Origin: Syntrophobacteraceae bacterium
GTDB lineage: Bacteria > Desulfobacterota > Syntrophobacteria > Syntrophobacterales > Syntrophobacteraceae
Direction: 5' to 3'
Assembly (NCBI GenBank): GCA_031292195.1
Contig: JARLHP010000289.1
Location: 1 to 51,750 of the forward strand
Length of the DNA: 51,750 nt
Shown here: in pieces, positions 28,461-51,750 of the stretch
Layout of the letters: the number at the start of each line of letters is the position of its first letter
Numbering within the stretch: the first letter of the stretch is position 1
Notes under the pieces: generated by a model
Database searches by the model: none
What the model saw: the letters and a program-made list of their open reading frames with translations, nothing else
Told to the model about the DNA's origin: nothing
Made by a program: the position numbers and the translations under genes

Positions 28461-28606
28461 CCGGTGAGTCGGTGAATGGGTGAATCGGTGAATCGCTCAG
28501 TTGACGCCAATTTCCCCGTTTCCCCGCACCATCTACCCACCCGCTCTTTTAGTTTTTCCCCATTCACCTATTCACCGATTCACCCATTCACCGGCTCTTA
28601 TTCACC
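28461..28606. repeat. GGTGAATC repeat element, copy A
   Basis: The left arm (28461-28495) carries direct copies of the 8-bp ggtgaatc and variants; the right arm (28561-28606) carries the complement (gattcacc, cattcacc). The core between them contains gttgacgccaattt and cttttagtttttcc. The same arms and a related core occur at 49050-49214. The element lies between flgF and flgG inside an operon, starting seven bases after the flgF stop codon. Confidence 0.85.
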
Positions 28607-36260: not shown

Positions 36261-37319
36261 CTACTTCCGTTGTTTCTGCTGATAGATATAAGCCAGTATT
36301 TTTGCCACTGCCCTGTAAAGCTCGGCCGGGATGATTTCATCGAGCTTTACCTGTTTATACAAGGCACGTGCCAAGGGAGGATTGCGCACTATGGAAACTC
36401 CGTGCTTCCTGCCCTCCGCGATGATTTTCAGGGCCAGAAAGTCAATGCCTTTGGCGAGCACCACCGGAGCCTGCATCCCCGGCTCGTAGAGCAGCGCCAC
36501 CGCGAAATGAGTGGGGTTTGTGACAATGACGCTGGCCTTCGGCACTTTGCCAAGCATCCGTTTTCTGGCCATCGCCCTTTGAAGGGAGCGGATCTTTGCC
36601 TTCATCTGCGGGTTGCCTTCGTTCTGCTTGGCCTCCTCCTTGACCTCCTGTTTGGTCATCCTCAGGTCTTTTTTGGTCTGCCACTTCTGGTAACAGAAAT
36701 CCAGGATACTCACGATCAGCATAAAACCGGCCACCCGAAACAAGAGCTTGAGGGCCAGCGTTCCCGTAAAGCTCAAAAAGTCCGGGGCGGATTGCCAGGC
36801 CAAATCCGCCATGGCGCCCCGCTCCGGCCACAATAGGGAGTAGGCCACATACGAAACGATCACCATTTTCAAAATGGCTTTGGCAAATTCGGTGAGGGAG
36901 CGAAGGGAAAACATTTTTTTGAGGCCGCTTAGAGGATTGATGTTATTGAAGCTCACGTGCAAAGCCTCAAAAGATACAATCAACCCTTTCGTTTGGCCCA
37001 GGTTGAGAATCACGGCTGTTAGGACTATGGCAAGGACAACCGGGGCCATCATCGATAAAAGAGAGAGCATGATTGTCAGGAAAAAGCCGGGGGCGAAAAC
37101 CCCCGGGTGAGTGAACGACTCTTTTGACCACAGGTATTCAACGAGCTGCTGAAAACAGCTCAGTATGTGATTGCGGGACAAATAGATAGCCACCCCGCCC
37201 GTTACCAGAACGCTGGTTGAAGTCAGGTCCCGGCTCTTGGGGATCTGGCCCTTCGAACGCGCATCCTCGAGCCGTTTTCCTGAGGGCGCCTCACTTTTAT
37301 CCTGGTTTCCCTGCGCCAA
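36261..37319 (-). CDS. flhB: Export switch protein FlhB, TTG start
   Basis: A 352-residue membrane protein that switches export from rod/hook to filament substrates, in response to FliK. Four membrane segments lie at about 30-210. The self-cleavage motif NPTH is in VIVTNPTHFAVAL near 265. The start is TTG 37319 (AQGNQDKSEAPSGKRLEDAR), preceded by AAAGGAAAGAG at about 37328-37338. Normally fliR would lie directly upstream; here a 2-kb island does, so flhB and the genes below need a separate promoter, which I could not identify. Confidence 0.95.
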   Translation of the reverse strand: MAQGNQDKSEAPSGKRLEDARSKGQIPKSRDLTSTSVLVTGGVAIYLSRNHILSCFQQLVEYLWSKESFTHPGVFAPGFFLTIMLSLLSMMAPVVLAIVLTAVILNLGQTKGLIVSFEALHVSFNNINPLSGLKKMFSLRSLTEFAKAILKMVIVSYVAYSLLWPERGAMADLAWQSAPDFLSFTGTLALKLLFRVAGFMLIVSILDFCYQKWQTKKDLRMTKQEVKEEAKQNEGNPQMKAKIRSLQRAMARKRMLGKVPKASVIVTNPTHFAVALLYEPGMQAPVVLAKGIDFLALKIIAEGRKHGVSIVRNPPLARALYKQVKLDEIIPAELYRAVAKILAYIYQQKQRK

Positions 37320-45065: not shown

Positions 45066-45860
45066 ATGTCATCCAACATGATGTACACGGCGGTTTCAGG
45101 CCTCGACACTTTCAAAGAAGCGATGTCGGTTGTAAGCAACAACATAGCCAACTCCAATACCACGAGCTATAAATCGCAGACGGTTGATTTCGGCAACCTG
45201 GTGAGCGGATATTTGCCCACCGTATACCCCAACGACACGGCGGACGGTTCGGGTACCGCCATACTCAACACCTCGTCGGACCAAACCACCGGTTCTGAAA
45301 TGACGACCAATACCTGGTCGGATTTGATGATCCAAGGCAATGGGTTCTTCGAAGTCCAAAACACAAACAACAGCGCCGATTACTACACCCGGGACGGATC
45401 ATTCGAGGTCAACGCCACAGGGTATCTTACTGATATGAACGGCAACGATGTGCTCGACACGTCGGGGAAGACCATTCAGATAGAAGCGGACCCCACCAAC
45501 CCGGTTTATGCCAATTATTCCGTGGGCCAATTCGGGGATGTCGTTGGAACCACTTCGACCGGTACCCAGGCGACACTGGGCCAAATCGGCGTGACTACTT
45601 TCTCCAACCCCAACGGTATGATCTCGGTGGGCAACAACCAACTGCTTACAGGCCCCAACTCCGGAATAGGCGTAGTGCAGGCGGCGGGCTCCGGCGCGGC
45701 AGGCTCCATCATATCGGGCGCACTGGAGGCTTCAAACGTCGATCTGACCAAGCAGATGGTGGACATGATCACTTACCAGGCGGACTTCCAGGCAAACTCC
45801 AAATCCATAGCCACCGGCAATACCCTGCTCCAGACCGTGGTAAACCTGATCGCAGGATAA
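45066..45860 (+). CDS. flgE: Hook-type protein, short FlgE
   Basis: A 264-residue axial protein with the rod/hook N-terminus VVSNNIANSNTTSYKSQTVD and C-terminus GALEASNVDLTKQMVDMITY. The place after flgD and the N-terminal YTAVSGL point to hook protein FlgE. However, it is much shorter than the 400 residues of enteric FlgE, close to FlgG in size, so the surface-exposed domains are largely missing. Either the hook is thin-walled or a longer hook protein lies elsewhere. AAAGGAG precedes the ATG, and a strong hairpin ends the unit. Confidence 0.85.
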   Translation: MSSNMMYTAVSGLDTFKEAMSVVSNNIANSNTTSYKSQTVDFGNLVSGYLPTVYPNDTADGSGTAILNTSSDQTTGSEMTTNTWSDLMIQGNGFFEVQNTNNSADYYTRDGSFEVNATGYLTDMNGNDVLDTSGKTIQIEADPTNPVYANYSVGQFGDVVGTTSTGTQATLGQIGVTTFSNPNGMISVGNNQLLTGPNSGIGVVQAAGSGAAGSIISGALEASNVDLTKQMVDMITYQADFQANSKSIATGNTLLQTVVNLIAG

Positions 45861-46009: not shown

Positions 46010-46239
46010 TTGACTGGAGCGCCACGGGATGCTATCTGGTAGTTGTTGGAGGGGGAGCGTCAGTCTGCGAGGCGAGCCAATCAAATGAACCCGGCTAAGA
46101 AAGCCGGAGGCCGTCGAGTGCGCCGCCGCCCCTGATTTAATCGATAAAAATCCCGAGACCACGAAGGTCTTTTGTTTTCCACCAAAGTGGAGCAGAGGAA
46201 TTTCGTGGTCTTTTTTTGTGCTTACGGAGAGGATTGGCG
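46010..46239 (+). promoter_or_regulatory. cbiM leader with candidate promoter and attenuator
   Basis: TTGACT (46010-46015), a 17-base spacer and a weak TATCTG (46033-46038) could start a transcript near 46045. The leader of about 195 bases contains a hairpin ccggct/agccgg (46091-46107), GC-rich segments and a terminator-like structure ending about 20 bases before the cbiM start. This is the layout of a riboswitch or attenuator for a metal transporter. I could not match it to the cobalamin or NiCo riboswitch consensus. Confidence 0.4.
46156..46217 (+). terminator. Terminator-like hairpin in front of cbiM
   Basis: agaccacgaa (46156-46165) pairs with ttcgtggtct (46202-46211), with an inner ccac/gtgg hairpin, and is followed by six more T. 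The same agacc can instead pair with ggtct at 46166-46170 to form a short hairpin followed by tttgtttt. The two pairings exclude each other. Confidence 0.7.
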
Positions 46240-47268
46240 ATGCACATTCCCGACGGTTACTTGAGTCCTTCGACATGCGCGGCGCTTGGCGCCGCCATGC
46301 TTCCGGCATGGGCCGGGGCGGTGGGCAGAGTAAAGGGCCGGATCAAGTCCCGGTATGTCCCCCTGATGGCTATCGGGGCGGCTTTTTCCTTCACCATAAT
46401 GATGTACAACGTGCCTATACCCGGGGGAACCACCGCCCATGCGGTGGGAGGTGGATTGCTCGCGGTGGTGCTCGGCCCCTGGGCCGCCATGATTTGTATT
46501 ACCATCGCACTGGCCATCCAGGCACTCCTCTTCGGGGACGGGGGCGTTTGGACTTTCACCGCGAATTGTTTCAACATGGCGCTGGTGCTGCCTTTCGTTG
46601 CCTACGGGGTCTATCGGCTAATCAGCGCAAAGAGTGCGCCGGGTTCAGCGCGCAGGTGGGTGGGCGCGGCGGCCGGCGGGTATGCCGGGCTCTGTGCCGC
46701 CGCCCTGTGCGCGGGAGTGGAACTGGGACTCCAGCCGGTCTTTTTTCATACCGCCGGGGGCGTTCCTCTCTATTGCCCATACCCCCTGAAGGTTTCCATC
46801 CCGGCCATGATGCTTGCCCACCTGGTTGTGGCCGGCCCCCTGGAAGCAGTTGTGACTGGGTTTGTGGTGCGTTACCTGCAATCCTACAACGTGGCGCTGC
46901 TGGACAATCGAGCACTGTCCACGGATTTCCAGCCCTCCGAGGCCGTAAGCTACCGAAAACTGTGGTGGGCGCTGGGCGCAATGGCCATTCTGTCCCCCCT
47001 TGGTTTGCTGGCCGGAGGCGACGCCTGGGGTGAATGGGGAGCTGCAGACCTTCAAAAACTTGTCGGTTTCATTCCGGCGGGATTAAAGCGCATGACCGGC
47101 ACATGGTCCTTCGCTCCTTTCCGCGATTACTCTCTGCCCGGCTTCGATTCGTTTGGGTCTTCGGCCCTCGTCTACATCTTCTGCGCCGTTATAGGCGCCG
47201 GGATCATTTGCCTGTTCACCTATTTTTTCGGACGCTTCCAGGCGCTGGAGAGAAAGGAACGCAACTGA
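46240..47268 (+). CDS. cbiM: ECF-type cobalt/nickel permease S component, CbiM/NikM with C-terminal extension
   Basis: A 342-residue inner-membrane substrate-binding component. The N-terminus MHIPDGYLSP supplies the metal-coordinating amine and His2, a hallmark of CbiM/NikM. About seven membrane segments follow, with the conserved MYNVPIPGGTTAHAVGG and NCFNMALVLPFV. The C-terminal part (WGEWGAADLQKL..DYSLPGF, then a last membrane segment) resembles a fused CbiN/NikN- or PDGLE-type unit, as in NikMN proteins. GGAGAGG lies before ATG 46240. No cobalamin genes are in the window, so cobalt and nickel cannot be separated. Confidence 0.92.
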   Translation: MHIPDGYLSPSTCAALGAAMLPAWAGAVGRVKGRIKSRYVPLMAIGAAFSFTIMMYNVPIPGGTTAHAVGGGLLAVVLGPWAAMICITIALAIQALLFGDGGVWTFTANCFNMALVLPFVAYGVYRLISAKSAPGSARRWVGAAAGGYAGLCAAALCAGVELGLQPVFFHTAGGVPLYCPYPLKVSIPAMMLAHLVVAGPLEAVVTGFVVRYLQSYNVALLDNRALSTDFQPSEAVSYRKLWWALGAMAILSPLGLLAGGDAWGEWGAADLQKLVGFIPAGLKRMTGTWSFAPFRDYSLPGFDSFGSSALVYIFCAVIGAGIICLFTYFFGRFQALERKERN

Positions 47269-47289
47269 AGCCATGGGAGAACTGAATCG

Positions 47290-48240
47290 ATGAGCGAACC
47301 GAGGTGCGTTCCGTCCTGGCTCCAGGAGAAGACTCCCGCGGTCGCGGCCGTGCCGGTGCGCAAACGGAGTTTGAAAGGCGGTTTTGTGGAGAAGACTTTG
47401 CACGCCATCGCGGAAGTGATGAAAAACGAGGTTTTTTCCGAATCGCTGGCAAGCCGGCAGGGTCTTTTACAGGGCTTGGACCCCCGCGCCAAATTGGTGA
47501 GCGTCCTGTTTCTGATAGGGACGGTCGGACTGTTTCACCATATATTTCCCCTGGTCTTGTTCAACTTATGGCTTTTCTGGCTGGCCAAAAGTTCCAGGGT
47601 CCCCCTGGGCGTGTTCACCAAAAGAGTATGGATTGTCGTGCCGCTGTTTACGGGGATACTGGTCTTGCCGGTGCTGTTCAATGTCGTCCGGCCCGGAACG
47701 CCCCTGCTGGTGCTTTTCCATTTGAGCCGCCCGCTCACTCTGGGTTACTGGACAATCCCGGCGGAAGTGGCAATAACCAGGCAGGGGTTGGCGGCGGCCG
47801 CACTTTTGATGCTCAGGGTCGGCGCGTCGGTTTCCCTGGCCGTGCTGCTCACTCTTACCACCCGCTGGAACGCGCTTATCAAAGCCCTTGGCGCATTGCG
47901 CATCCCCGCCATATTTCTTTCGGTATTTGAAATGACTTACCGCTATATTTTTCTGCTGCTAAGCGCCAGCAGCGACATGTTCCTGGCCCGCAGGAGCAGG
48001 CTGGTGGGCAGGGCGGGTCCCCGTGAAGAGCGACGGTTTGTCACTTCGGCCATGGGAAGCCTTTGGTGCAAGACCGCGGCTTTGAGTGAAGAGGTGCACG
48101 GAGCTATGATTTCACGCGGCTATGCCGGAACCCCCCGCTCCATGCTCCGCTTTAAGATGAAGCTCAGCGATTGGGCATGGATTATCCTGGTGATCTTCAC
48201 AGCTATTCTTTTTATTGGAGGTGATCGTGTCCTCGGTTGA
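47290..48240 (+). CDS. cbiQ: ECF transporter T component, CbiQ
   Basis: A 316-residue transmembrane coupling protein. About 65 extra N-terminal residues precede the core LLQGLDPRAKLVSVLF. Four or five membrane segments and the two coupling motifs (TRWNALIKALGALRIP; SEEVHGAMISRGYAG, with the Ala-Arg-Gly type signature) follow. It starts 22 bases after cbiM and overlaps cbiO by 14 bases. Confidence 0.93.
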   Translation: MSEPRCVPSWLQEKTPAVAAVPVRKRSLKGGFVEKTLHAIAEVMKNEVFSESLASRQGLLQGLDPRAKLVSVLFLIGTVGLFHHIFPLVLFNLWLFWLAKSSRVPLGVFTKRVWIVVPLFTGILVLPVLFNVVRPGTPLLVLFHLSRPLTLGYWTIPAEVAITRQGLAAAALLMLRVGASVSLAVLLTLTTRWNALIKALGALRIPAIFLSVFEMTYRYIFLLLSASSDMFLARRSRLVGRAGPREERRFVTSAMGSLWCKTAALSEEVHGAMISRGYAGTPRSMLRFKMKLSDWAWIILVIFTAILFIGGDRVLG

Positions 48241-49048
48241 GACTGCCGGCGCCGCCCCGGTCTTTTTACTGGAAGGAGTGACCTACCGTTATCCTGACGG
48301 GGAAATCGGCGTCAACAACCTGGATCTGAGCGTTGGCGAACGGGAAAGAATTGTCCTGCTTGGTGCTAACGGATCGGGCAAATCGACCCTGCTGAGGATC
48401 CTGGACGGCCTGATTTTCCCAAGCGACGGGCTTGTCCATACCTTCGGCCAGGTGCTGAACGAAAAAAGCCTGAGCGAAGAGGTATTCAATTACGACTTCC
48501 GCAGGCGAGTAGGATTCGTCTTTCAAAACTCCGAGACCCAGCTCTTTTCTTCCACTGTGTGGGATGAGATAGCTTTCGGTCCCCTTCATATGGGAATGGA
48601 GGAACCTGAGATACGGCGGCGAGTCTCGGAAGTCCTCGAACTGGTGGGCATCGAGGCGATCAAGGACCGCCCGCCTTTCAAACTGAGCGGGGGGGAGAAA
48701 AAGAAGGTGGCCCTGGCCGCCGTTCTGGCTACCAACCCGGATGTCCTGCTGCTCGATGAACCTACGGCGGCCCTGGACCCGCGCACCGAGAGGTGGCTGG
48801 TCGACATGCTGATTCAGCTCGGAAAATTTGGCAAAACGATCATCACGGCCACCCATCACCTGGATATTGTGGAAGAGATCTCAGATCGCGTTCTCATCTT
48901 CGGCGAGGACCACCGCGTGGCGGCAACGGGCCCCCCATCCGAACTTCTTTCCGAAAAAGAACTGCTGTTGCATGTGAACCTGATCGATCCCCGGTTCCAC
49001 AAGCACTCCCACGGCGGGGACCACCGCCATTATCACATTCATGATTGA
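48227..49048 (+). CDS. cbiO: ECF transporter ATPase, CbiO
   Basis: A 273-residue ABC ATPase that powers the CbiMQO importer. Walker A GANGSGKST, the Q loop FVFQNSETQLFS, signature LSGGEKKKV, Walker B VLLLDEPTAALD and the switch His in TATHHLD are intact. The C-terminal tail is His-rich (HKHSHGGDHRHYHIH), which could bind the transported metal. GTG 48227 is the likely start because GGAGGTGATC lies directly before it, inside cbiQ. Confidence 0.95.
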   Translation: MSSVETAGAAPVFLLEGVTYRYPDGEIGVNNLDLSVGERERIVLLGANGSGKSTLLRILDGLIFPSDGLVHTFGQVLNEKSLSEEVFNYDFRRRVGFVFQNSETQLFSSTVWDEIAFGPLHMGMEEPEIRRRVSEVLELVGIEAIKDRPPFKLSGGEKKKVALAAVLATNPDVLLLDEPTAALDPRTERWLVDMLIQLGKFGKTIITATHHLDIVEEISDRVLIFGEDHRVAATGPPSELLSEKELLLHVNLIDPRFHKHSHGGDHRHYHIHD

Positions 49049-49049
49049 T

Positions 49050-49214
49050 AAGAGCCGGTGAATAGGTGAATCGGCTAATCGGTCGGTTGACCCCAATTTT
49101 CCGTTTTTTGTCGCCCCATTCACCTATTCATCAGATCTTTGAGTTTTTCCGATTCACCCATTCACCGATTCACCGATTCACCGATTCACCGATTCACCGA
49201 CTCACCGGCTCTTT
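49050..49214. repeat. GGTGAATC repeat element, copy B
   Basis: The left arm (49050-49083) starts aagagccggtgaat; the right arm (49151-49214) has six gattcacc/cattcacc units and ends ccggctctt, the complement of the left end. The core shares gttgac.ccaatttt and ctttgagtttttcc with copy A at 28461-28606. It fills the gap between the convergent cbiO and fliK and may act as a terminator hairpin. Confidence 0.85.
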
Positions 49215-49229
49215 TTCCACCGACTCTTC

Positions 49230-51750
49230 TTACGCAAACAGGCTTATTCGCGACCCGCCTCTCGTTGCAGTGGTCCCGGGAACCGTTTCCGATGTCTGGG
49301 CAGTGCCGGCTTCGGTCGATCTGAACGATCCTCTCCCGCCGCCCTGAGCGCCGGACTGGTTAGTTTCGGCGTTGTGTCCGCCTCCCGACTTCCCACCGTT
49401 AACGTCAACCATGAATTTTCCCAATACGAGGCCCTGGTTCCGCAGATCCTGGCGAAGTTCGACCGAATGACTCATCAGCGTCTGTCTGGCAGATTCGTTT
49501 TGGGTCAGCGCCTCCACCACAATTTCATCCTTTCTGGCCCCGACTTTCAGGTTAATCTTCCCCAGTCCTTCGGACTCCATCTCGAGGACCAACTGGCGCC
49601 CGACGCCGCCTGACATCTGCTCTCGCGCGTTGTTCGCCAGTTCCACCGCACGATAGGGATCGTACGTGGAAAAGCCGTTTTGGGCCGAATTATCGGCAAG
49701 AGGCATATTTATTGGTTGAAGATTCGATGCCGAAGCCTGCGCGACAGCGGTACCAAGGAGCGAATCTTTGCCAACGGCCTGGTCATCGCCCCGCTTTGGA
49801 GCCACCGCCCCCTGCCCTGCAACCACCAACTGTTCGATGGTCGTCAACCTGTCGGTCCCGATCGTTTCTGATACCCTCTCCGTAACGTCTTTCTCGAAAG
49901 ATGAACCTGACTGGCCATCGCCGGATTGTCCGCTTTGGTCCATGAGGTCTGCAGGTGCGCTCACCGCTTCCTGTTGGGCAAGGAACCCGGCTCCAGCCGA
50001 AGCCGTGGAGGACCCATTACCCAAGCCGTTGATCCAGCTCTCAGCGCTACGCCCCGTTTGGCCGCCATCACGGACCCCCGAGGTGGATTTGTCCGAAACC
50101 GCCTGTCCATCGGATTTTGCGCTATTTAAATCACTTCCAATATTGCTCTTATCTGAATCTTTGACCTCTTTGCCGGCGGTCGGCTTGTCAATCCGCCTGG
50201 CGGCAACCGTCCCCCCCTGCCGTCCGAATACCAACTGTTCAATGGCTGCAAACCTGTCGCTCCCGCTCGCTACGGATAGGCTCTCCGTAACGTTGTCCGT
50301 GGAAAGCGAACCGGAACTCTGCGCACTGCCGGATTGTCCGCTCAGTTCCGTAAGGTCGACAGGCGCACTTACCACACTCGGTTGTACAAGGGACCTGGCT
50401 GGAGCTGGAGTTGTGGGAGACATGTCGCCCGAGGCGCTATTTACGGCTCCGGAGTTCTGTCCGGTTTGACCGCCATCACCCGTAACAGTGACCGATTTGT
50501 CTGAACCCGCCTGCCCGTCGGATTTCGCACTTGGAGAAGCACCTTCAACGGAACTCCTGCCGAAATCTTTGATCTCTTCGCTTCCGGCCTGCCCCTCGGT
50601 AGCCTTTGCAGCTCCGGCGCCCGACCACCCTCCGAACACCATCTGTTCAATGGCTGCAAGCCTGTCGGTCCCGCCAGCTACAGATACGCTCTGCGAAACA
50701 TTATTCTCCGAAACGCCACTCTCCGAAATCGCCCCTGCCCTCTGCGGCACACCGCCGGTTTGGGCGCTCTGGCCCGCAAGGTCGCCAGGCGCGCTTACAG
50801 CAACCTGTTGGCCCTGCGACCGGGCCGAAGTCGAAGTCGAAGTTGTGGAAGGGCCGTTACCAGAAACGATATGTCCGGCCACGGAGGTCTTTGCCGTTTG
50901 GCTGCCGTCAACGCCCACCCTGGCAGAATTGTCCGAACCGGTTTGCACGGCGGATTTGGTGCTCCGGTCCGTAAAATCCGAAAACGTGCTCACCGCATCC
51001 TTTTGGCCAACGGACCTGGCTGAAGCCGAAGCCAAAGCCGAAGCCAAAGCCGAAGTCGAAGCCGAAGTCGAAGCCGAAGTCGAAGCCGAAGTCGAAGCCG
51101 AAGTCGAAGCCGAAGTCGAAGCCGAAGTCGAAGGGGAAGTCGAAGGGGAAGTCGAAGGGGAAGTCGAAATTGTGGCAGGGCCGTTACCAGAAACGCTATT
51201 TCCGGCCGCGGAGGTCTTTGCCGTTTGGCTACCGTCAATGCCCACCTTGGCGCCATTGTCCGAGCCGGTCTGCACGGCGGATTTGGCGCTCCGGTCCGTA
51301 AAATCGAAACCCGCGCTCACCGCATCCTTTTGGCCAACGGACCTGGCCGAAGCCGAAGCCAAAGCCGACGCCGAAGTCGAAGTCGAAATTGTGGAAGGGC
51401 CGTCACCGGAAACGCTATTTCCGGCCACGAAGGTCTTTGCCGTTTGGCTACCGTCAATGCCCACCTTGGTGCCATTGTCCGAGCCGGTTAGTCCGGCGGA
51501 TTTGGCGCTCCGGTCCGTAAAATCGGAAACCGTGTTCACAGCATCCTTTTTTCCTAAGTACGTGGTCGAAGCCCAATCCGAAGAAGACGCCACAGTCGAA
51601 TTCCAATTCGAAATTGTGGCAGGGCCGTCACCGGAAACGCTATTTCCGGCCGCGGAGGTCTTTGCCGTTTGGCTACCGTCAATGCCCACCTTGGTGCCAT
51701 TGTCCGAGCCGGTTAGTCCGGCGGATTTGGCGCTCCGGTCCGTAAAATCG
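49230..51750 (-). CDS. fliK: Hook-length control protein FliK, repeat-expanded, 5' end outside the window
   Basis: 839 residues are visible and the frame is still open at the right edge, so the protein is longer and its start is unseen. Export rulers of this type measure hook length and then trigger FlhB to switch substrates. The C-terminal Flg_hook domain is clear (GRQLVLEMESEGLGKINLKV, then VVEALTQNESARQTLMSH and LRNQGLVLGKFMVDV). Upstream, two long modules of about 136-142 residues, each with an IEQ(M/L)VFG motif, are followed toward the N-terminus by at least four short modules of 65-109 residues (DFTDRSAKSA..VGIDGSQTAKT). The long modules' second halves resemble the short module. Enteric FliK has about 400 residues. 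Confidence 0.9.
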   Translation of the reverse strand, partial: DFTDRSAKSAGLTGSDNGTKVGIDGSQTAKTSAAGNSVSGDGPATISNWNSTVASSSDWASTTYLGKKDAVNTVSDFTDRSAKSAGLTGSDNGTKVGIDGSQTAKTFVAGNSVSGDGPSTISTSTSASALASASARSVGQKDAVSAGFDFTDRSAKSAVQTGSDNGAKVGIDGSQTAKTSAAGNSVSGNGPATISTSPSTSPSTSPSTSASTSASTSASTSASTSASTSASTSALASALASASARSVGQKDAVSTFSDFTDRSTKSAVQTGSDNSARVGVDGSQTAKTSVAGHIVSGNGPSTTSTSTSARSQGQQVAVSAPGDLAGQSAQTGGVPQRAGAISESGVSENNVSQSVSVAGGTDRLAAIEQMVFGGWSGAGAAKATEGQAGSEEIKDFGRSSVEGASPSAKSDGQAGSDKSVTVTGDGGQTGQNSGAVNSASGDMSPTTPAPARSLVQPSVVSAPVDLTELSGQSGSAQSSGSLSTDNVTESLSVASGSDRFAAIEQLVFGRQGGTVAARRIDKPTAGKEVKDSDKSNIGSDLNSAKSDGQAVSDKSTSGVRDGGQTGRSAESWINGLGNGSSTASAGAGFLAQQEAVSAPADLMDQSGQSGDGQSGSSFEKDVTERVSETIGTDRLTTIEQLVVAGQGAVAPKRGDDQAVGKDSLLGTAVAQASASNLQPINMPLADNSAQNGFSTYDPYRAVELANNAREQMSGGVGRQLVLEMESEGLGKINLKVGARKDEIVVEALTQNESARQTLMSHSVELRQDLRNQGLVLGKFMVDVNGGKSGGGHNAETNQSGAQGGGRGSFRSTEAGTAQTSETVPGTTATRGGSRISLFA
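50785..51750. repeat. Tandem repeat of about 220 bp inside fliK
   Basis: Units begin (plus-strand view) near cggtccgtaaaatcg at about 50964, 51291 and 51510 and again at the window edge. Distances of about 327, 219 and 225 bases are multiples of three and the units are nearly identical in places. The array continues past the window. Confidence 0.85.
51027..51166. repeat. 12-bp microsatellite in fliK
   Basis: About seven copies of gaagccgaagtc and three of gaaggggaagtc in direct tandem, with related gaagccaaagcc copies beside them. On the coding strand they encode Ser-Thr-Ser-Ala and Ser-Thr-Ser-Pro tetrapeptides. Gain or loss of a unit keeps the frame. Confidence 0.9.

Follow-up and report, generated by a model that had tools for sequence, protein, structure and literature searches.

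A long FliK with nested tandem repeats in its linker from a Syntrophobacteraceae bacterium

FliK of Salmonella is established as both a ruler and a switch, and engineered variants of 363-785 aa gave hooks of 42-135 nm, that is 0.2 nm per residue (PMC6126814). The statement in the initial annotation of the present locus that hook length follows FliK length is therefore correct for Salmonella. Insertions in FliK lengthen the hook and deletions in its linker shorten it (PMC6126814, PMC6972891), the deletions also loosening control (PMC6972891), and over-long hooks make the bacterium swim worse (PMC6126814). It has been demonstrated that contact with FlhB requires the linker beside the switch domain and that a duplication there improved the contact (PMC6972891). 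In 14 of 14 pseudorevertants of one Salmonella mutant the repair consisted of an in-frame duplication of 100 residues within fliK (PMC6972891), and growth of the gene by duplication is thus realistic. In the injectisome of Yersinia the number of repeats in YscP (of 14, 25 and 46 aa) differs between strains and needle length tracks YscP size (PMC3469391). Our search of the literature for tandem repeats in FliK returned nothing relevant, which does not prove that none exists. The present study describes a fliK gene in which such repeats are nested. The DNA analysed, a stretch of 51,750 bp from a Syntrophobacteraceae bacterium, is called the window here.

The fliK gene and its neighbourhood

The window is an entire contig (C195) of a fragmented draft genome of 311 contigs and it stops inside the fliK repeat array. 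The open frame on its minus strand ends with a stop codon at 49230-49232, comprises the last 839 codons of fliK and runs off the right end (Table 1). It matches the Flg_hook profile PF02120 with E=2e-10 (40.8 bits against a cut-off of 29.8), and this domain occurs once in the genome. A position of the missing half downstream of the window was ruled out, since the window is the whole contig; the half was found at the end of contig C225 (L007:10586-12766, + strand). There the frame holds the N-terminal 727 codons, starting with MGLEMLSGQVNASQLLAAFLG, and runs off the contig within the same kind of short modules, of which it contains two full copies and one partial. The two contig ends, compared as the first 134 bp of module S1 and the last 134 bp of C225, are 97.8% alike with 3 mismatches; this was the best overlap and no exact one was found between them, so that the joined length is a minimum. 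FliK would have about 1,518 aa if one and the same module stands at both contig ends and at least 1,563 aa otherwise. Because both contigs were interrupted among near-identical repeats, the number of copies is likewise a minimum.

That the two contigs belong together follows from the single Flg_hook domain, from the congeneric FliKs, which share their N-terminus with the C225 half and their C-terminus with the C195 half, and from conserved synteny. Two congeners (L071, L073) each have, on a single contig, the gene order YkuD transpeptidase, VgrG3-like hydrolase and fliK, followed by cbi genes on the opposite strand; the neighbours were identified from a reading of translations. Both the profile match and the synteny bear out the identity given in the initial annotation. 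That annotation had also called for the full gene, which is now largely recovered with the N-terminal half on C225, leaving a gap in the array between the contigs. Across about 1,500 codons of the two frames there is no stop, and the switch domain is 56-65% identical to those of five congeners (L069-L073). Judged by its sequence, the gene is the single FliK of this organism and apparently an intact and functional one. The predicted layout is an N-terminal exported part, a long and probably unstructured linker, and a C-terminal switch domain acting on FlhB. No Pfam or NCBIfam model matched the N-terminal half, which is conserved in the congeneric FliKs, and a sequence-profile search against solved structures gave no match at E<=1.

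Table 1. Features of fliK and of two flagellar neighbours in the window (residues are numbered within the open frame of the window)
Feature	Position	Strand	Remarks
flhB	36261..37319	-	expected partner of the FliK switch domain; PF01312 E=1.5e-119; NPTH motif present
probable hook protein FlgE	45066..45860	+	264 aa, without FlgE D2 domain
fliK, C-terminal 839 codons plus stop	49230..51749	-	5' end open at contig end
FliK C-terminal switch domain (PF02120, Flg_hook)	49386..49622	-	profile match
third TDR unit	49755..49949	-	residues 601-665; half a long module, fused to and running into the C-terminal switch domain
long module L2	49950..50357	-	residues 465-600, 136 aa; TDR unit 50121-50357, AKS unit 49950-50120
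long module L1	50358..50783	-	residues 323-464, 142 aa; TDR unit 50529-50783, AKS unit 50358-50528
short (AKS) module S4	50784..50978	-	residues 258-322, 65 aa
short (AKS) module S3	50979..51305	-	residues 149-257, 109 aa; lengthened by Ser/Thr/Ala (12-bp) microsatellite
12-bp microsatellite within S3	51022..51168	-	12.2 copies, 96% matches; encodes (Ser-Thr-Ser-Ala/Pro)n
short (AKS) module S2	51306..51524	-	residues 76-148, 73 aa
short (AKS) module S1	51525..51749	-	residues 1-75, 75 aa

The flagellar genes in the window include those for FlhB, FlgD and a probable FlgE, and flagellins are encoded elsewhere in the genome. The FlgE was the sole FlgE-like hook protein found. Its congener orthologues are equally short (frames of 268-285 aa), and in another family of the order FlgE has 389-425 aa (loci compared: L075-L088). 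A pairing of the long FliK with a large hook protein was ruled out as an explanation of the array, because FlgE is about as short in all congeners with an orthologue, the species with shorter FliKs included. A hook built from a FlgE subunit of D0-D1 size is worth a look in itself.

Some further observations concern the surroundings of fliK. The gene directly upstream (L007:9012-10148) carries a VgrG3-like C-terminal domain (PF21277, E=8.5e-34), and a gene with similar size and N-terminus occupies its place in L069-L073; the product is possibly a flagellar peptidoglycan hydrolase. Between flgE and fliK, at 46216-49048, lie genes of a cobalt/nickel-type transporter (cbiM, cbiQ and cbiO-like, from reading their translations). 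Genes like cbi also come after fliK in L071 and L073, and in L069 fliK and flgE are close convergent neighbours. Tandem arrays of the octamer TTCACC[G/C]A are present at 28462-28495, 28559-28592 and 49149-49207, an inverted pair sitting between flgG and flgF and the last array just downstream of the fliK stop. With up to 2 mismatches allowed, the octamer matched 67 times across the genome and a reversed control 0 times. The matches often form inverted pairs with a spacing of about 100-290 bp and look like a dispersed intergenic repeat family.

Architecture and history of the repeats

The frame is strongly self-similar: its best off-diagonal 40-residue window scored 190 as against a maximum of 62 across 200 shuffles of the same residues. 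Two building blocks make up the array. The AKS unit is usually about 73 aa long (57-75 aa, or 103-109 aa with expansion) and follows the pattern AKSxGxxGSDxxxxxxxDGxQTx...VSGxGP...ARSxGQxxAVSxxx. The TDR unit has 65-85 aa and contains TDRLxAIEQLVxG. A long module consists of TDR plus AKS and a short module of AKS alone, so that the order toward the C-terminus is six or seven AKS, TDR-AKS, TDR-AKS, TDR and the switch domain. The layout described in the initial annotation, with long modules beside the switch domain and four short ones lying N-terminal to them, was confirmed. Its claim that every short module is similar to the C-terminal half of a long module was confirmed as well, since a profile built from the short modules only matched L1 at residues 86-126 (E=4e-6) and L2, weakly, at 80-135 (E=0.017), with no match in the first halves of either. 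A third level of repetition is a Ser/Thr/Ala stretch of 8 to 52 residues inside the AKS units. All copies are in frame and without stops, and their DNA identity is 53-98%, which argues that most are distinct and do not represent one copy assembled twice. The array is rich in Ser, Ala, Gly and Thr with few hydrophobic residues. An AlphaFold model of the last 517 aa, made with 6 sequences, showed the array as coil throughout, with no structure for the TDR unit; the model is poor over its whole length (mean pLDDT 33.6) and can serve as an indication only. By composition and with this indication, the modules look disordered.

The copies fall into two age classes. Among the short copies Nb, Nc and S1-S4, dS is 0.03-0.36. 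Na, which is the first of the short copies, and the AKS units within long modules stand at dS of roughly 0.5-1.9 from the others, and pairs of TDR units at 0.60-0.76. As Na is old by this measure, an AKS unit was probably there before the amplification. Values of dN/dS among the young copies are mostly 0.6-1, with an overall range of 0.3-2.1 calculated from short sequences. Such values suit a linker in which the frame is kept and the exact residues are of little import.

Nine congener FliKs, of 680 to about 975 aa (G005 counted from a conserved start), were available for comparison. TDR units were recognised in five: two each in G001, G007, G009 and G010 and one in G005, those of G009 and G010 being weak (E 1e-4 to 3e-8). 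These five have only one or two recognisable AKS units each, a count that rests partly on position and by-eye reading, and they lack the short-module array. In the remaining four neither unit was recognised. An AKS profile made from the copies of the present gene did not find the unit in congeners. Another profile, made from long-module copies with that of G001 among them, recovered the G001 copy; weaker matches in G005, G007 and G009 appeared only when bias correction was left off, a setting at which some shuffled controls score as well. Repeat content thus varies between species from 0 to 3 TDR units and from no recognisable AKS unit to at least 8, the present gene having 3 TDR and at least 8 AKS. 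The TDR unit is the best conserved part of the array across the five congeners. Linker lengths vary widely among congeners through unrelated duplications, such as several 47-aa units in G005. From these data the long unit is old and shared with congeners, and the short amplification is recent and, among the lineages sampled, confined to this one. The growth in two stages proposed in the initial annotation is supported by the two dS classes together with the congeners that have only one or two TDR units, and the sequences support three nested levels of repetition. A tree of the TDR units was set aside as proof; its order fits an old distal/proximal pair with a later extra copy here, with weak support.

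Repeats of other kinds were observed in the FliKs of the phylum. Among 50 frames sampled, some of them cut by locus ends, 11 (about a fifth) have internal repeats scoring more than 1.3 times the shuffle maximum, with sequences unrelated to this array. The unit sizes include 107 aa in G080, 75 and 44 in G033, 61 in G127, 45 in G032 and 111/69 in G028. The 11 also include G011, of the same family and another genus, where two Flg_hook domains lie in one 738-aa frame (L058:698-2911), a duplicated switch domain. These sequences show that growth of FliK by repeats is a recurrent process in the phylum, and repeats in FliK as such are less novel. The present FliK is the longest believable one among the frames listed and checked, the next having up to 1,256 aa (G091). 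A 1,372-aa frame with PF02120 (G181) would be longer but was rejected, for its first half does not resemble FliK and probably runs into other frames upstream.

What the added length could do

The single, apparently functional FliK has had its linker lengthened by nested in-frame duplication, and it could be that the added length is partly read out as a longer hook, a reading to which we give a probability of about 0.52. An old TDR+AKS unit of about 140 aa was duplicated beside the switch domain. The AKS half alone (about 73 aa) was amplified recently, among the sampled lineages only in this one, and the Ser/Thr/Ala microsatellite inside the AKS units slipped to differing lengths. New copies may arise through slippage or unequal recombination, and could be tolerated since insertions in multiples of three leave the reading frame intact and the linker has no need of an exact sequence. 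Less certainly, part of the added length may be read out as in Salmonella FliK and Yersinia YscP, in which case the hooks would exceed 55 nm and also those of the congeners. Extrapolation of the Salmonella slope gives about 278 nm for 1,518 aa, a length far beyond the tested 785 aa, and 110-169 nm for the congeners. By analogy, the unusually long hooks proposed in the initial annotation are plausible in this organism, and hook length may, as it also proposed, be adjusted by repeat number. Several points speak against a read-out of the array. The slope of 0.2 nm per residue has been explained by a helical ruler, whereas the array looks disordered and was modelled as coil at very low confidence. 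The figure of 278 nm comes from extending the line well beyond the lengths covered by experiment, and Salmonella cells whose hooks are over-long swim poorly. The lack of a Pfam or NCBIfam match for the N-terminal half also weighs against this explanation.

The array could instead be slack that is neutral to length, a disordered linker drifting by duplication while hook length is set by the N-terminal part, by hook or cap contacts, or by timing. This is a serious rival, because the modules look disordered, nearly neutral and specific to the lineage, and we hold it tentatively as the second choice. The widely varying congener linkers, the dN/dS among young copies and the unrelated repeats in about a fifth of the sampled FliKs are all in agreement with it. 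However, free slack would depart from the known behaviour of Salmonella FliK, in which insertions and linker deletions change the hook, and a partial read-out as longer hooks is somewhat more likely than pure slack.

It is improbable that the repeats mainly alter switching, either in how readily the switch domain engages FlhB or through the frequency of the ruler test, with the TDR unit as a small interaction site in several copies. Such a role would suit the conservation of the TDR motif beside the switch domain in five congeners, and the improved FlhB contact after duplication in Salmonella. Against it, the TDR unit has no structure in the (poor) model, the recent growth took place in AKS and not in TDR, and the TDR contact is only putative. 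Slightly less probable still is a contingency locus, in which slippage and recombination among near-identical AKS units and in the 12-bp microsatellite would drive changes of FliK length within a population and so yield cells that differ in hook length and in swimming.

An assembly artefact, in which the assembler piled up copies of a single module or the two contig ends are unrelated, is very unlikely. Both contigs of this fragmented draft do end in the array with similar but not exactly matching ends, but most copies have diverged (53-92% DNA identity), in frame and without stops, and the synteny and the unique PF02120 domain link the contigs. Only the precise count of the near-identical short copies could be affected by such an error. 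A decaying gene in a lineage that is losing its flagella is likewise very unlikely, for in spite of the fast evolution of the array and the split of the gene in the assembly, the long frame without stops, the conserved switch domain, the intact flagellar genes in the window and the flagellins elsewhere speak against it.

Comparison with known rulers

FliK here is an extreme variant of a known protein and its main use could be as a natural test of the ruler model. The length series behind that model covers a single species and engineered FliKs no longer than 785 aa (PMC6126814). A genus whose FliKs span 680 to at least 1,518 aa, mostly by way of repeats that look disordered, offers a natural series, in which hook length may depend on the length of the ruler, on the conformation of the chain or on neither of them. 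Should hooks fail to scale there, the simple ruler model would not hold for linkers of this kind; should they scale, hooks of very great length would exist in nature.

Like the Salmonella protein (405 aa), this FliK has one copy of a C-terminal Flg_hook switch domain, the order N-terminal part, linker and C-terminal domain, and a flagellar gene setting with FlhB. It differs in its length of at least 1,518 aa, in a linker of nested tandem repeats and in having no recognised N-terminal ruler profile. The FliKs of five congeners (L069-L073; Deltaproteobacteria bacterium MAGs DX1.bin82, BP9.bin85, WY4.bin13 and BP6.bin57, and Syntrophobacteraceae bacterium MAG_BA129) share the N-terminus, TDR units and AKS traces before the switch domain, and a similar gene neighbourhood. 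However, they have 892-975 aa, one or two TDR and about one or two AKS units, and no short-module array, and that of WY4.bin13 (G005) has expanded its 47-aa unit instead. The other repeat-bearing FliKs of the phylum (G028, G032, G033, G080, G127) resemble it in having internal tandem repeats, of 44-111 aa, but their sequences are unrelated, the copies are fewer and no comparable nesting of two units was seen. YscP, the needle-length ruler of the Yersinia injectisome, is a secreted ruler with repeats, and as in the present FliK the repeat content differs between related genomes, in our case between species. It serves an injectisome and not a flagellum, and its repeats are other and shorter ones, for which both strain variation and an effect on length have been shown (PMC3469391).
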